64,000 nt of DNA from Sutcliffiella sp. FSL R7-0096. GTDB lineage: Bacteria; Bacillota; Bacilli; Bacillales; Bacillaceae_I. A program made the position numbers and the translations under genes. The notes under the pieces were generated by a model. The model saw only the letters and a list, made by a program, of their open reading frames with translations, was not told the DNA's origin and did no database searches. Within the stretch, counting starts at the first letter, position 1; the number at the start of each line of letters is the position of its first letter. Where the stretch lies: assembly GCF_038595065.1 (NCBI RefSeq), contig NZ_CP152003.1, forward strand, positions 1,592,001 through 1,656,000. Direction: 5' to 3'. This document shows, piece after piece, positions 5,462 through 60,465 of this stretch.

Positions 5462-5861
5462 AATGAAAAGATAAAAGCAAGTCATCACAAAGGACAACTT
5501 GCTTCTATCTTTTTATTCGAATAAAGGCGCTAATAAATGATGTATAGCGCAATTAGTAACTTGCTTCATCACAAGCATTATAAGATGTCCAGCTACATGG
5601 ACATGATTTATAAATGACATAAAAGTATTATATTCGTTTGCCGCGGTATAATTCCATGGTAGTTTCCCTTACTTAAACAACGTAAGCCCTACCTCTCATA
5701 CGTCCTTACGGCTCCTAGGCCGTGCCAGATCGATTAAGCCTCTGTGAAAAAACTATATGGAACGCCAGTGCATCCTTGTGACACGTTGGTATTGCTTAAG
5801 AATGTCATAACGTTCTTCCTTTCTATATCAAGTTACTAATATGAGTGGGCTTGCACCCAAT
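5462..5861 (-). ncRNA. predicted large structured RNA (about 400 nt), family unknown
   Basis: A promoter at 5867-5894 and a minus-strand terminator at 5466-5513 bound 400 nt with no long frame. The strand between them is rich in pairing. A perfect 12-bp long-range helix joins 5829-5840 to 5552-5563. Hairpins lie at 5847-5858, 5708-5723, 5658-5693 (nested), 5585-5604, 5563-5576 and 5527-5550. I compared it by memory with RNase P, tmRNA, SRP RNA, 6S RNA and the ydaO riboswitch; none of their conserved motifs is present. It could be a known class I fail to recognise. A 24-codon frame with a good ribosome binding site lies inside it (5734-5808). Confidence 0.55.
5734..5808 (-). CDS. 24-codon small frame inside the predicted RNA
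   Basis: AAGGAAG precedes an ATG (5806-5808) by 6 nt. The frame reads MTFLSNTNVSQG, then CTGVPYSFFTEA, and stops with TAA. A single central Cys with an aromatic tail is reminiscent in a loose way of small signalling peptides, but there is no partner gene nearby. It may be a coincidence within a structured RNA. Confidence 0.25.
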   Translation of the reverse strand: MTFLSNTNVSQGCTGVPYSFFTEA

Positions 5862-6997: not shown

Positions 6998-7017
6998 AAG
7001 TATAAGATTGAAAAAAA

Positions 7018-7045
7018 AGCTTGGGCATGTGAAATGTCCAAGTTT
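7018..7045 (+). terminator. terminator hairpin, copy 1, left of family A repeat
   Basis: AGCTTGGGCATgtgaAATGTCCAAGTTTT folds into a G-T-containing stem with a T-run, 20 nt after the CheR-like gene. Almost the same hairpin recurs at 7257-7290 beyond the repeat. Confidence 0.7.
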
Positions 7046-7046
7046 T

Positions 7047-7256
7047 CAGACTGTTGACAAACTATAAATTAGTTAGGTTATCGATTGGAAGAGTTGATCT
7101 GCGTTGCAGGAGCTTCGCTTTCCGCGGGCAGTCCGGAAGCCTCCTCGGGCTACGCCCTGCGGGGTCTTCCATGTCCTTTCTTCCCGCAGGAGTCTTCGCT
7201 CCTTCCACTTCGATCAACTAGAGAATTTTATTATTTTTAGCTTCGTCTACACACTG
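7047..7256 (-). repeat. family A repeat, copy 1 (210 bp), inserted in a terminator
   Basis: The element runs from CAGACTGTTGACAAACTATA to a matching inverted end CGTCTACACACTG. Its GC-rich core holds GCAGGAGCTTCGCTTTCCG, GCCTCCTCGGGC and CCCGCAGGAGTCTTCGCTCC, and an inner GTTGATC/GATCAAC pair. It is inverted relative to the copies at 37549 and 51450. Spurious frames cross it, but none has a start signal. Confidence 0.85.
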
Positions 7257-7290
7257 AAAGCTTGGGCATGCGAAATGTCCAAGCTTTTTT
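7257..7290. terminator. terminator hairpin, copy 2, right of family A repeat
   Basis: AAAGCTTGGGCATgcgaAATGTCCAAGCTTTTTT is a nearly perfect stem, A-rich on the left and T-rich on the right. It can work for the CheR-like gene and for the convergent PAS-like gene ending at 7308. It differs from copy 1 by only a few bases. Confidence 0.8.
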
Positions 7291-15367: not shown

Positions 15368-16282
15368 ATGAAAAAGACCATGGTTTCCTTGGTAACAGCA
15401 GCGGCCCTTGCAGGCACGTTTAGTTTAGGTGCGAATGCCTCTGCTGCAGAAGTAACGGTAAAAAAAGGCGATACTCTTTGGGACATCGCTAAAGCAAATA
15501 ACATATCAGTAGAAGAAATCAAAGATTGGAATGGACTTTCCAGTGACGTTATCCATCCGCAAGATCAATTGAAAGTAGCATTATCTGAACGCTACAAAAT
15601 TGAAAAGGGAGATACGTTATGGGGGATATCTCAAAACTATGAAGGTGTAACTTATCAGAAGCTAGCAGAATGGAATTCCATTGCTAACCCTGATTTAATC
15701 TACGCAGGGGACGAACTGGTAATCTATGTGGATGGAAAGCCTGTTCCTGTCGAAGCACCAGTAAAAGAAAAAGCACCAGCTGAAGAGCCTGTTACAGAGA
15801 CTCCGGCAGAAGAAGCACCGGCTGAAGAGCCTGTTACAGAAGAACCAGCAGAAGAAGCACCAGCTGAAGAACCTGTAACAGAAGAACCAGCAGAAGAAAC
15901 ACCAGCCGAAGAGCCTGTAACGGAAGAACCAGCTGAAGAGCCTGCAGAAGAACCTGCTCAAGAAGAAGAAACAGCGGCTGATCCAGAAGTAGCACAGGAG
16001 TTAACAATGACAGCAACTGCTTACACGGCTACTTGTGAAGGTTGCTCTGGTATCACTGCAACTGGAATCAACCTATTGGAAAACCCTGATATGAAAGTGA
16101 TTTCTGTTGATCCGGACGTCATTCCTTTAGGATCTAAAGTTTGGGTAGAAGGCTATGGCGAAGCAATTGCTGGAGATACTGGTGGAGCAATCAAAGGAAA
16201 TAAAATTGATATCTTCATCCCAGAATACGAAGATGCTGTGAACTATGGTGTACAAGAAGTTCAAGTAAAAGTTTATAAGTAA
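15368..16282 (+). CDS. secreted LysM-3D cell-wall protein (YocH-like)
   Basis: A 304-aa exported protein. The signal peptide ends near ANASA (residue 26). Two LysM peptidoglycan-binding repeats follow (VKKGDTLWDIAKANNIS at about 29-72, IEKGDTLWGISQNYEG at about 76-120). A Pro/Glu linker carries tandem units EEPVTEEPAEEAPA (about 135-205). The C-terminal 3D domain starts at MTATAYTATCEGCSG and includes the three Asp residues in VISVDPDVIPLG, GDTGGAIKG and NKIDIF. 3D proteins are predicted lytic transglycosylase-like autolysins. AGGAGG precedes the ATG. The WalR-type site upstream supports a cell-wall homeostasis role. Confidence 0.9.
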   Translation: MKKTMVSLVTAAALAGTFSLGANASAAEVTVKKGDTLWDIAKANNISVEEIKDWNGLSSDVIHPQDQLKVALSERYKIEKGDTLWGISQNYEGVTYQKLAEWNSIANPDLIYAGDELVIYVDGKPVPVEAPVKEKAPAEEPVTETPAEEAPAEEPVTEEPAEEAPAEEPVTEEPAEETPAEEPVTEEPAEEPAEEPAQEEETAADPEVAQELTMTATAYTATCEGCSGITATGINLLENPDMKVISVDPDVIPLGSKVWVEGYGEAIAGDTGGAIKGNKIDIFIPEYEDAVNYGVQEVQVKVYK

Positions 16283-19454: not shown

Positions 19455-19790
19455 AGTTGTTCGTAGTGGAAGACGCGCAGACTCCTCGAAAATGCTGCGC
19501 ATTTCCTTCGTGCGATAAATCGCTGATGTAGCCTTCCTTGTCCAGCGTTAGGAAAGGACAGGAAAACCCCGCGACGAAGGAGGCCACTGAAAAACACAAT
19601 TGCTTATCTTTTTTATGAATTTCTAGCTGTTGATTGTCGCCCTCTGGATAAGCGAAGCCGTTTGCGAAAATCAACAGCGGTGTTAAACAGAGTATCTGAA
19701 TTATGTACTGTATCAGTGGCCTTCAACGAAGTGAGGAGGCTCCCGGACCGCCCGCAGGAAAGCCAAGCGCTTGGAACGAAGAACAATGGT
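19455..19790. repeat. degenerate repeat split by a nested family B repeat
   Basis: The left part (GTTCGTAGTGGAAGACGCGC, then AACCCCGCGACGAAGGAGG) and right part (CGAAGTGAGGAGGCTCC, CCGCCCGCAGGAAAGC) resemble the two halves of a family A/B element. Between them GAAGGAGGCCACTGA and TCAGTGGCCTTC form an inverted pair. A complete short family B element sits in the middle at 19620-19690. Confidence 0.6.
19620..19690 (+). repeat. family B repeat, short form, nested
   Basis: It begins TTTCTAGCTGTTGATTGTCG and ends GAAAATCAACAGCGGTGTT, the same ends as other family B copies, with most of the GC-rich core deleted. Confidence 0.75.
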
Positions 19791-20208: not shown

Positions 20209-20427
20209 AAAGGCGGTTTTCGTATACTTTGTTGCTTTTTCGTATTTATAAACCAACCGTTATATTCCTTGCTGTCGTGCTCTTTTCCTTGTTAAACAAA
20301 ATGCATGCATGTCTATTTTAGAGATTCTAAGCTATGAAATGTTCAAGTGCCGACTTTTCTTGTAAAAAATCCAAGTGCCGACTTTTCACTAGTGAATAGC
20401 AACAATCTTTGAGAAAACAGCCTTTTT
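20209..20427 (+). repeat. family C repeat, copy 1 (MITE-like)
   Basis: It starts AAAGGCGGTTTTCGTATACT followed by TTGTTGC, and ends with the imperfect inverse (GCAACAATCTTTGAGAAAAC then AGCCTTT). A middle motif, CGTTATATTCCTTGCTGTCG followed by TGCTCTTTTCC, is shared with copies at 47269 and 54319. It has terminal inverted repeats but no coding capacity. Confidence 0.8.
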
Positions 20428-22438: not shown

Positions 22439-22555
22439 TTCTAGCTGTTGATTGTAGCAAATTGCGTAGATTCCTCAGGTAAAGCCGAAAAGGCTCCGCA
22501 AGCGCCCTGTGGAGTTCGAAGCCTGTTGCGGAAATCTACAGCGGTGTTTAACAGG
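22439..22555 (+). repeat. family B repeat
   Basis: From TCTAGCTGTTGATTGTAGC to GGAAATCTACAGCGGTGTTT. The core is partly diverged (GTAGATTCCTCAGG, GGCTCCGCAAGCGCCC). It fills most of the gap between kynB and the hydrolase gene and lies on the same strand. Confidence 0.8.
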
Positions 22556-22642
22556 TGCCTAATGAACCAACAACTACCAAAATTTGCTTTCCCCTGCATG
22601 TTTTCATACAATAGACCTAATCTATTTAGGTGAGGGTCAAAC

Positions 22643-31019: not shown

Positions 31020-31160
31020 TTTCTAGCTGGTGATTGTAGCGAAAGGCGAAGACTCCGGCGGGAGGTAGCGGTAGACTTGAGACGCCGCAATGAAATGAGG
31101 AGGCTCAAGCACCGCCCCGCGGAAAGCGAAGTCTGGCGCGGAAATCAACAGCGGTGAATA
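31020..31160 (+). repeat. family B repeat between ku and ligD
   Basis: Runs from TTTCTAGCTGGTGATTGTAG to GGAAATCAACAGCGGTGAAT. The core has GGCGAAGACTCCGGCGGGAG, TGAGGAGGCTCAAGC and CGCCCCGCGGAAAGCGAAG. It opposes the direction of the surrounding genes. Confidence 0.85.
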
Positions 31161-31198
31161 ACCGGATACCTATTGGAAAGAAGAAAACATCTAACCTA

Positions 31199-37524: not shown

Positions 37525-37548
37525 GGGAGAGACTCTAAGGTCTCTCTC
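37525..37548 (+). terminator. terminator hairpin, copy 1, left of family A repeat
   Basis: GGGAGAGACTCTAAGGTCTCTCTC, 22 bp after ktrD. The stem is GAGAGAC with GTCTCTC. It recurs at 37761-37783 with one loop change. Confidence 0.7.
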
Positions 37549-37760
37549 AGCTTGTAGACAAAGTAATCTGAGTAATATATATTTTCCCTGTTGATCGCAG
37601 TGAAAGGAGCGTAGACTCCTGCGGGAGGAAAGGACATGGAAGACCCCGCAGGGCGATAGCCCGAGGAGGCTTCCGGACTGCCCGCGGAAAGCGAAGCTCC
37701 TGTAACGAAGATCAACTGTCATATGCAAATCTAAAGTTAATTAGGGTTTGTCAACAGTCT
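37549..37760 (+). repeat. family A repeat, copy 2 (212 bp), inserted in a terminator
   Basis: Left end CAGCTTGTAGACAAAG, right end GGTTTGTCAACAGTCT (imperfect inverted ends). The core reads GTTGATCGCAGTGAAAGGAG, GACTCCTGCGGGAGG, GAAGACCCCGCAGGGCG, CGAGGAGGCTTCCGG and GCCCGCGGAAAGCGAAGCTC, ending AAGATCAACTG. It is nearly identical to copy 3. Confidence 0.9.
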
Positions 37761-37783
37761 AGGAGAGACTCTAGGGTCTCTCT
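37761..37783 (+). terminator. terminator hairpin, copy 2, right of family A repeat
   Basis: AGGAGAGACTCTAGGGTCTCTCT followed by ATTATTTT. It is a near-exact duplicate of the hairpin at 37525, so the repeat splits a duplicated terminator. Confidence 0.75.
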
Positions 37784-47268: not shown

Positions 47269-47454
47269 AAGGCTATTTTCGTAAACTTTGTTGCTTTGGC
47301 AAATTTTTAAAGTGACCGTTATATTCCTTACTGTCGTGCTCTTTTCCTTGCAATACTAAATATGCTACGTGCATATCTAGAGTAAGTAAGCAGTAAAAAG
47401 TCCAATTTCCGACTTTTTACTAGTGAATAGCTACAATTTTTTAGAAAAGAGCCT
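47269..47454 (+). repeat. family C repeat, copy 2
   Basis: Starts AAGGCTATTTTCGTAAACTT and ends ACTAGTGAATAGCTACAATT followed by TTTTAGAAAAGAGCCT. It shares CCGTTATATTCCTTACTGTC and GTGCTCTTTTCCTTG with copy 1. Confidence 0.78.
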
Positions 47455-51415: not shown

Positions 51416-51449
51416 AAGGATCCATTGTACACATATGTATAATGGATCC
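51416..51449 (+). terminator. terminator hairpin, copy 1, left of family A repeat
   Basis: GGATCCATTgTAC pairs with GTAtAATGGATCC around the loop. It lies directly after the ArsR-type gene and recurs at 51660-51695 with one base changed. Confidence 0.75.
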
Positions 51450-51658
51450 CAGTTTGTAGACAAAGCTTAAAATAATGAAATTCTCTAGTTGATCGCAGTG
51501 GAAGGAGCGAAGACTCCTGCGGGAGGAAAGGACATGGAAGACCCCGCAGGGCGTAGCCTGAGGAGGCTTCCGGACTGCCCGCGGAAAGCGAAGCTCCTGC
51601 AACGAAGATCAACTCTTCCAACAGATATCCTAACTAGTTTATAGTTTGTCAACAGTCT
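51450..51658 (+). repeat. family A repeat, copy 3 (209 bp), inserted in a terminator
   Basis: Left end CAGTTTGTAGACAAAGC, right end AGTTTGTCAACAGTCTG. The core GATCGCAGTGGAAGGAGCGA to GCTCCTGCAACGAAGATCAA differs from copy 2 at only a few positions. Confidence 0.9.
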
Positions 51659-51659
51659 G

Positions 51660-51695
51660 AGATCCATTGTACTCATATGTATAATGGATCCTTTT
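51660..51695. terminator. terminator hairpin, copy 2, right of family A repeat
   Basis: GATCCATTGTAC and GTATAATGGATC with a TTTTG tail, a near-exact duplicate of 51416-51449. It also stands at the end of the convergent mtnA gene. Confidence 0.75.
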
Positions 51696-54006: not shown

Positions 54007-54221
54007 CAAAAATAAAAGCCCCTTTCCATAAGAAAGAGGCTTGAAGCATCAACTTCTCCCCTCTTATCTGCCAGAAGTCACTTCTGCTGGAATTAGCACC
54101 GTGCCTTATGAACGATTACGTTCGGCGTCAATTAAATGTAACGCCCTGTCTCACAACAGTATTACGGTCGGTTGCTGGGTTTCATCGGGCCAAATCCCTC
54201 CACCTGCTCTTGATAAGAGAT
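54007..54221 (-). promoter_or_regulatory. S-box (SAM-I) riboswitch before mtnKA
   Basis: On the minus strand the aptamer begins CTTATCAAGAGCAGGTGGAG and contains GGCCCGATGAAACCCAGCAA, CACGGTGCTAATTCC and the closing GATAAGAGG (54060-54221). The expression platform is AAGCCTCTTTC paired with GAAAGGGGCTT plus a T-run (54007-54042). SAM binding should favour termination. Confidence 0.95.
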
Positions 54222-54318: not shown

Positions 54319-54496
54319 AAAAAGGCTTTTTCTCAATTTGTTGCTTTTTATTAGCAAAAGTCTGCAAATGGACTTTGTAGCGTTTCTTAATCTGTATATG
54401 CATGTAGTATTACAGCAGGGAAAAGAGCACGACAATAAGGAATATTATTGTTGGTTAAAATATACAAAAAGCAACAAAGTTACGAGAAAAGGCTTT
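54319..54496 (-). repeat. family C repeat, copy 3, inverted
   Basis: It starts AAAAAGGCTTTTTCTCAATT followed by TGTTGC and ends AAAAAGCAACAAAGTTACGA then GAAAAGGCTTT. It is the reverse orientation of copies 1 and 2, with GGAAAAGAGCACGACAATAA in the middle. An 89-codon frame crossing it is not credible as a gene. Confidence 0.78.
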
Positions 54497-54590: not shown

Positions 54591-54655
54591 TAAACTATTA
54601 TTTTTGTTCGTGAATATGGAAAGTCAGAAACAAGTTTTCGTCTTGAAATGTTTGA

Positions 54656-54904
<249 letters not shown>

Positions 54905-54919
54905 TGCTAGCCAAATAGA

Positions 54920-54948
54920 AAAGGACTCCATCCCGGAGTCCTTTTTGT
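54920..54948 (+). terminator. intrinsic terminator
   Basis: AAAGGACTCC pairs with GGAGTCCTTT around ATCCC, followed by more T. Confidence 0.88.
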
Positions 54949-54981
54949 TTTGAAAGAATAAGAGAATTTTATAATACAGAT

Positions 54982-57383: not shown

Positions 57384-57525
57384 ACTAGCTGTTGATTGAG
57401 CAAATGGCGAAGACTCCAGTGGGGGAATAGCGACAATGTTGAGACCCCGCAGGCGAAAACGAGGAGGCTCAAGGTCGCCCCACGGAAAGCGAAGCCATAT
57501 GAGGAAATTAACAGCGGTGAATAAT
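57384..57525 (+). repeat. family B repeat directly before the mtnW riboswitch
   Basis: From ACTAGCTGTTGATTGAGC to GGAAATTAACAGCGGTGAAT. The core has GGCGAAGACTCCAGTGGGGG, GAGACCCCGCAGGCG and CGAGGAGGCTCAAGG. Its terminal TTAACA stands 17 bp before TATATT and could serve as the -35 of the mtnW promoter. Confidence 0.85.
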
Positions 57526-57542
57526 AAATTTATATTATCCAA

Positions 57543-57697
57543 TCTTATCAAGAGCAGGTGGAGGGACTGGCCCGATGAAACCCGGCAACCGACTTAATTT
57601 TATTAAGCACGGTGCTAAATCTTGCAGCATGAAGCTGATAGATAAGAGGACGTTAGATAGACGAACCTCTTCTTATCGAAGAGGTTTTTTGTTTTTT
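57543..57697 (+). promoter_or_regulatory. S-box (SAM-I) riboswitch before mtnWXBD
   Basis: The aptamer runs CTTATCAAGAGCAGGTGGAG, GGCCCGATGAAACCCGGCAA, GCACGGTGCTAAATC to GATAAGAGG (57543-57650). The terminator is ACCTCTTC with GAAGAGGT plus T-run (57665-57697). It places the operon under SAM control. Confidence 0.95.
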
Positions 57698-60298: not shown

Positions 60299-60437
60299 TA
60301 GCTGTTGATTGGAGGAACGGGCGAAGACTCCGGCGGGAGGTAACGGTAGCTTGAGACCCCACAGCGGAGCGAGGAGGCTCGAGCACACGCCCCGCGGAAA
60401 GCGAAGCCCGGTACGGAAATCAACAGCGGAGTTTAAT
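60299..60437 (+). repeat. family B repeat between mtnB and mtnD
   Basis: From TAGCTGTTGATTGGAGGAAC to GGAAATCAACAGCGGAGTTT. The core has GCGAAGACTCCGGCGGGAGG, TTGAGACCCCACAGCGG and GAGGAGGCTCGAGCAC. Its terminal TCAACA is 17 bp before TATAAA, upstream of mtnD. Confidence 0.88.
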
Positions 60438-60465
60438 AATGATATAAAATAAGGAGGAATTTAAC

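Follow-up and report, generated by a model that had tools for sequence, protein, structure and literature searches.

A hairpin-flanked element in the window

Within a 64,000-nucleotide stretch of the Sutcliffiella sp. FSL R7-0096 chromosome (NZ_CP152003.1, positions 1,592,001 to 1,656,000; hereafter the window, with positions counted from its first letter), a short repeat occurs three times, each copy lying between two copies of a hairpin. Copy 3 spans positions 51450..51659 on the plus strand, is 210 bp long, runs from CAG to CTG, and carries the ends CAGTTTGTAGACAAAG and, read as reverse complement, CAGACTGTTGACAAAC. It is preceded by a left hairpin copy at 51418..51449, the target site duplication, which corresponds to a single hairpin in the empty site of a relative (G009), and followed by a right hairpin copy at 51661..51691, which is itself followed by the T-tract. 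Aligned over 31 bases, the two hairpins show a single mismatch, and the outermost 5′ base differs too. Copy 1 lies in reverse orientation, on the minus strand, at 7047..7256 between hairpins at 7016..7046 and 7257..7287, and copy 2 lies on the plus strand at 37548..37761 between hairpins at 37526..37547 and 37762..37783. The hairpin sequences at copies 1 and 2 are unrelated to one another and to that of copy 3. An earlier interpretation made without database searches (the sequence-only reading) had described a 209-bp repeat bracketed by near-identical hairpins at 51416..51695 and a like arrangement, with unlike hairpins, at two further sites. Both descriptions hold (7016-7287 and 37526-37783 for the latter), with the element now measured at 210 bp.

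The repeat has the features of a miniature inverted-repeat transposable element (MITE), namely terminal inverted repeats resembling those of insertion sequences (ISs), many copies, a target duplication and no transposase gene. Its inverted ends follow the consensus CAG-N2-TGT-N-GACAAA, the left end being CAGTGTGTAGACAAAG in most copies and CAGTTTGTAGACAAAG in copy 3; the imperfect inverted repeats noted earlier are indeed present, but longer than first stated. The CAG...CTG ends are near-constant across the copies while the flanking hairpins vary by site, and the same consensus ends are found on host elements with other interiors. At least 41 full-length copies are present in the 4.9-Mb host chromosome. 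By mechanical calling, the longest open reading frame (ORF) wholly inside copy 3 has 51 aa, and single-strand folding of this copy is modestly better than that of shuffles (z -2.18). A search of Rfam for an RNA family inside the MITE returned nothing at gathering level; the only match with an E value up to 1 was tsr24, at 14 bits against a gathering score of 50 (E 0.61). A phage origin was likewise set aside, as the phage collection gave no match.

Hairpin duplication across the host genome

To assess the flanks across the chromosome, we used an unselected set of 41 full-length copies, picked by BLAST alone with their flanks disregarded. Set against 1640 mismatched flank pairs, the left and right flanks match each other above the 99% point in all 41 copies and above the maximum in 40 of them. 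The sequence-only reading had proposed checking how often such flanks are duplicate hairpins throughout the genome, and duplication in 41/41 BLAST-picked full-length copies bears it out. A cruder and weaker control scored the left-hand 45 flanking bases for self-complementarity, and here only 19/41 exceeded the 99% point of shuffles.

A second set comprised 54 MITE copies chosen because they carry a duplication of 12 bp or more. The two copies of the duplicated unit are identical at 30 of these 54 sites, and the flank test in the selected set (55/55) is partly circular because the copies were chosen for that duplication. The first-look scoring covered 40 of 251 candidates, and therefore more MITE copies may exist. 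Eleven further host copies were scored as nine duplicated, one doubtful and one without duplication; this scoring left out the copies at 2715160 and 4074704, the latter of which is included in the 41-copy set.

Two longer host elements, at 4549957-4551022 (1066 bp) and 1668466-1669321 (856 bp), have the same ends and duplicated hairpins around other interiors. The first of them seems to carry a tandem array of ~50-bp units.

Empty sites in relatives

If insertion creates the second hairpin, relatives lacking the element should hold a single terminator, as the sequence-only reading had anticipated. The flanks of six insertion sites were joined with one hairpin and searched in 16 genomes of the genus. 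Fourteen stretches were fetched out of many more matches listed; ten were aligned and four read by eye. All ten aligned empty loci (in G003, G004, G005, G007, G008 and G009) contain a single hairpin. More specifically, end-to-end matches to the joined sequence occur in G009 for each of the three window sites and for a fourth (91-95% identity), and two more sites are covered by other relatives. By eye, the copy-2 and copy-3 sites of G004 show a single hairpin followed by other repeats, and one further site in G009 has a single hairpin with an unlike right flank. At the copy-3 terminator of G003 (L300, about 390-740), a separate hairpin-MITE-hairpin arrangement stands beside the remnant of another end, which suggests that this terminator has been hit independently and repeatedly. 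Among 28 loci matching the MITE in relatives, 12 have both ends and nine of these 12 are duplicated; two of the other three have diverged duplicate hairpins by eye.

These loci also decide between insertion and two other accounts. Terminators can stand in tandem, so a pair of them could be older than the element, or the hairpins could be part of the element's own ends. The first account is ruled out by the one-hairpin empty sites (10/10 aligned), and the second by the different hairpin found at each site next to near-constant CAG...CTG ends; furthermore, matched flanks are alike and mismatched flanks are not, and we give these accounts practically no credence. The same observations, variable hairpins, constant ends and empty sites with one hairpin, agree with the earlier proposal that the hairpins come from the target and not from the element. 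Its central claim, insertion with duplication of a whole terminator, is directly demonstrated by the ten empty sites, and transposase-coding elements with like ends behave alike.

A probable partner transposase of the IS1182 family

In the host genome, PF13751 was not matched at E 0.001 and a two-protein transposase model was not matched at E 1e-5, so the MITEs look stranded there. The two-protein model was matched in 7/16 genus genomes, some of them through other subgroups. The need for a transposase acting in trans, raised by the sequence-only reading, is supported by this distribution, with no match in the host genome and a transposase present in same-genus species.

In a family search, 7 of 30 PF13751 loci had both ends of the MITE type. 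These ISs come from the same-genus genomes G003, G008 and G012, the last of which has four copies of one IS, and from the same-family genome G016, and an identical or near-identical hairpin pair flanks all seven. They measure 1498-1563 bp (1523-1843 bp in the wider set) and have CAG-N2-TGT-type inverted ends, and they include a decayed copy in G003 and frame-split ones in G012. Against NCBIfam NF033551 the transposase scores 483 bits with a cut-off of 270 (the first of two proteins, both of which match), and PF13751, PF05598 and PF01609 are found in both proteins. Members of the IS1182 family have one transposase gene, a length of about 1.3-2 kb and inverted ends. By its transposase, its size and its inverted ends, the partner IS is a member of this family. 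The first 16 bases of window copy 2 are identical to the left end of a same-genus IS (CAGCTTGTAGACAAAG), so the MITE has the terminal inverted repeats of an autonomous IS. It would be moved in trans by the transposase of one IS1182-family clade.

Genome contigs were scanned with the partner proteins and the best 80 of 502 loci, chosen by protein, were analyzed, keeping for each locus the pair of ends that gave the longest duplication. They belong to Bacillus, Neobacillus, Cytobacillus, Mesobacillus, Peribacillus, Lysinibacillus, Ureibacillus, Sporosarcina, Saccharibacillus and others, and in many cases a single IS is represented by several insertions within the same strain. In 71 of the 80 loci a duplication of 12 bp or more (19-42 bp) lies directly at the IS ends, its copies being identical in 68 of the 71. 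Of the nine failures, two (L179 and L180) have matched hairpins outside the scan range, six (L172, L184, L210, L221, L225 and L228) have a hairpin at the one readable end, and the ninth (L209) has flanks that do not match.

The closest described behavior is that of IS1272/TnSha1 in staphylococci, which targets hairpins and deletes them in part according to the relevant passages of Furi et al. (PMC4923244); new insertions of IS1272 follow pathway a, in which the hairpin is lost, in the corresponding sections of Wan et al. 2017 (PMC5678879). As far as these sections go, IS1272/TnSha1 shares with our elements an IS1182-family transposase, an inverted-repeat or terminator hairpin target without sequence consensus and a proposed cruciform-based strand transfer, but there the hairpin is replaced or partly deleted without target duplication, whereas our elements leave it entire and duplicate it. 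The MITE and IS sites do not show the IS1272-type outcome of a lost hairpin and no target duplication. A replacement of the IS1272 mode could have been followed by repair that restored two hairpins; transposase family and kind of target are the same (PMC5678879, PMC4923244). The identity of the hairpin copies in 68/71 IS loci speaks against such repair, as does the finding that only L209 among the 80 loci has both ends and clearly unlike flanks, and we regard it as very improbable.

Across Bacillota, 24/398 genomes match the transposase at E 1e-60. Thirty loci were fetched and 26 tried, of which one was too short and 25 were scanned for exact matches. By our reading, a palindromic duplication is present in 15 of the 25 (nine genomes, nine families), two of them shifted by one base. 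One copy of a Rhizobium IS with a 45% identical transposase shows a palindromic duplication as well. ISEfa7, an IS1182-like element of Enterococcus faecium (NZ_CP025427.1), is similar in its 59% identical transposase and its end CAGACTGTAGACAAAG; at the one copy examined, two identical 23-bp palindrome copies flank the IS and a T-run follows. It differs from the MITE in being autonomous. We saw no paper on the ISEfa7 target, although no search by its name was made.

We also considered whether every IS1182-like transposase duplicates hairpins. This is not so, as by eye a PF13751 group with GAGGCCACTGAAAAA ends lacks duplication of the whole hairpin.

The duplicated unit coincides with the target palindrome

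A DDE transposase normally joins the two 3′ ends of its element to the target at a near-fixed stagger, and the size of the target duplication is as a rule a near-fixed signature of the enzyme. For IS1182, ISfinder reportedly lists direct repeats that can reach about 60 bp. The duplicated unit measures 15-34 bp in the 54 MITE copies, and the overall span with the ISs is 15-42 bp. Every value from 19 to 34 bp (MITE) and from 19 to 35 bp (IS) is occupied, which is evidence against a fixed stagger.

The unit is itself a palindrome. Mirrored positions are complementary in 81% of cases in the 54 MITEs, against 27% (sd 2%) in shuffles, and in 89% in the 71 IS sites, against 27% shuffled. The center of the duplication equals the center of the dyad in 46/54 MITEs and lies within one base of it in 53/54; the corresponding values for the ISs are 68/71 and 69/71. 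Centering is exact in 114/125 MITE and IS sites, whereas twenty rounds of shuffled sites gave 0.8 on average and never more than 3.

Cuts symmetric about a dyad could also be made by a transposase dimer that binds the two palindrome arms in ordinary linear duplex form and cuts at their outer edges, without a cruciform. The outer pairs are biased to A..T, purine-first, which would fit sequence recognition of this kind. However, no common arm sequence was visible by eye beyond these outer pairs (no formal motif test was applied), and lengths of 15-42 bp, with every value from 19 to 34 (MITE) or 35 (IS) in use, are not easily accommodated by a rigid dimer. We consider a linear dimer unlikely.

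Intrinsic terminators as targets

The MITE targets are intrinsic terminators. Their context was scored for 45 copies with mechanical ORF calls, 10/55 having been dropped for short flanks or lack of an ORF. Of these sites, 22 are flanked by convergent genes, 23 by tandem genes and 0 by divergent genes, and the hairpin is a median of 8 bp from the nearest gene 3′ end (n=45).

The terminator tails are distributed unevenly between the two hairpin copies. At least five T among the eight bases after the hairpin are found at 1/54 left copies and 32/54 right copies, and at least five A before it at 30/54 left and 1/54 right copies. The A-tract thus remains with the left copy and the T-tract with the right one, which divides the terminator by direction. 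From these tail counts, we infer that each direction keeps one tailed hairpin beyond the element, an arrangement not seen at the copy-3 site. The sequence-only reading had assumed that each side keeps a working terminator; instead, the tails are split with one per side, and what stands of the assumption is the one tailed hairpin that each direction would retain.

Terminators further raise the possibility that the target hairpin is recognized as single-stranded DNA, behind a replication fork or in the transcription bubble of the terminator, rather than as a cruciform. The sites are terminators by position; RNA polymerase pauses at terminators, and the strands there may be open. On the other hand, the transposase is of the DDE type (PF01609/PF13751) and duplication needs attack on both strands. 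Nor is there a clear bias of element orientation relative to the T-tract, the one-sided cases being 13 vs 13 for the MITE and 17 vs 14 for the ISs. Recognition as a single strand appears distinctly unlikely to us.

Proposed mechanism of insertion

We propose that the MITE is a non-autonomous element of one IS1182-family clade whose palindrome-set duplication arises through attack on a cruciform, a reading to which we assign a probability of roughly 0.87. The duplication, its coincidence with the palindrome, the empty sites and the like behavior of same-ended transposase-coding elements are directly observed. In the proposed sequence of events, the target palindrome would be extruded as a cruciform, and the transposase would attack the two strands at the 5′ feet of the extruded hairpin, which in the simplest geometry would be adjacent in space. 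Gap repair would then leave a hairpin copy on each side. Attack at the hairpin feet would mean that hairpin length sets duplication length; the observed stagger equals the target palindrome, be it long or short, and the target rather than the enzyme would set the duplication (15-42 bp). After insertion, the rightward tail would stay with the right copy and the leftward tail with the left copy. Neighboring transcripts would cross the element yet still end, so that insertions would be nearly neutral.

Several observations weigh against this reading. In the host, duplication is absent from a decayed copy near 1834495 and doubtful at one nested copy, and among the 80 IS loci L209 has both ends but unlike flanks. 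Ten of the 25 Bacillota loci, including the two best-scoring (L303 and L304), lack a clear palindromic duplication in the exact-match scan; what it gave for these ten was nothing, chance repeats of 11 bases or, in L314, a 17-base repeat that is not clear. At window copy 3 the consensus terminator scan calls the right hairpin copy only (51661-51690, rightward), and it calls no leftward terminator at the left hairpin. At least one further base pair is possible outside the duplication at 32/54 MITE and 55/71 IS sites, so the cut often falls within an A/T-rich lower stem rather than at the base of the longest stem that could form. Such cuts might be due to branch migration at the junction. The outer pair is mostly A..T (44/54 MITE and 53/71 IS sites) and never T..A, possibly reflecting a base preference or simply terminator composition. 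Finally, we infer cruciform extrusion and attack at the 5′ feet only from the anatomy of the sites.

Relation to described systems and implications

Whole-hairpin duplication has been drawn as the hypothetical pathway b in Fig. 13 of Wan et al. 2017 (PMC5678879), in the part of that paper on insertion pathways. The sites described here correspond to it, with a duplication that equals the stem-loop and a length that tracks the target. Wan et al. (PMC5678879) also cite Siguier et al. 2015 for palindromic targets of some IS1182 members, without detailed data. The remark in the sequence-only reading that it knew of no described element with this target needs narrowing: hairpin and terminator targeting has been described for IS1272, but there the hairpin is lost in whole or in part and not duplicated. 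The IS1182 family and hairpin targeting within it are already known, and the observed whole-hairpin duplication, the MITE, the exactness and the breadth appear to be new. Searches of the open-access literature gave no record of natural whole-hairpin duplication with these attributes, though most subscription papers and ISfinder itself, which lay outside those searches, may contain one.

MITEs in general are likewise short, have inverted ends and are moved in trans by an IS, but the passages of PMC10969869 that treat them describe flanking direct repeats and leave terminator duplication unmentioned. The same passages present the pneumococcal SPRITE, BOX and RUP as small intergenic repeats, one of them terminator-like (PMC10969869). 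The difference is that SPRITE itself resembles a terminator (PMC10969869, same passages), whereas here the terminator belongs to the target.

On a broader scale, we find it fairly probable that a large IS1182-family clade of Bacillaceae, other Bacillota and Rhizobium, together with its MITEs, has as its target the four-way junction formed where a terminator palindrome is extruded, that DNA structure would dictate the duplication length, and that near-neutral insertions would let the elements fill terminators. The natural cases described here, in which the duplication tracks the target hairpin at unrelated sequences, are strong evidence that DDE transposition can be directed by structure, and they provide genome-scale evidence for pathway b, which we found in print only as a hypothesis. 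They also suggest a safe-haven strategy in which terminators could take up dozens of copies in a single genome while genes stay intact. With such duplications, cruciform targeting in other IS families can be tested simply from sequence. Programs that look for ISs or MITEs by means of short direct repeats may overlook such ends or assign them the wrong size.

Other repeats and features

At host positions 1879783-1880224, 2003091-2003530 and 4006771-4007100, the GC-rich core of the MITE holds, at about the same place, a nested second repeat whose ends are of the GCCACTGAAAAA type. At 2003091 the MITE halves overlap by 9 bp (element positions 101-109). Window repeats at 19639-19697, 22503-22561, 31113-31171, 57476-57534 and 60388-60446 have an interior similar to that of the nested repeat. 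The PF13751 ISs with GAGGCCACTGAAAAA ends, found in G006 of the same genus, sit in similar repeats and may be its partner.

The window further contains an unrelated dispersed repeat beginning AAGGCGGTTTTCGTATACTTTGTTGC, at 20210-20302, 47269-47361 and 54416-54470 (two direct, one inverted), and a 42-bp tandem repeat at 15766-15975. Rfam matches in the window are a cspA thermoregulator (54631-54949), two SAM riboswitches (57542-57648 and 54061-54219) and a BsrC sRNA (5668-5753).
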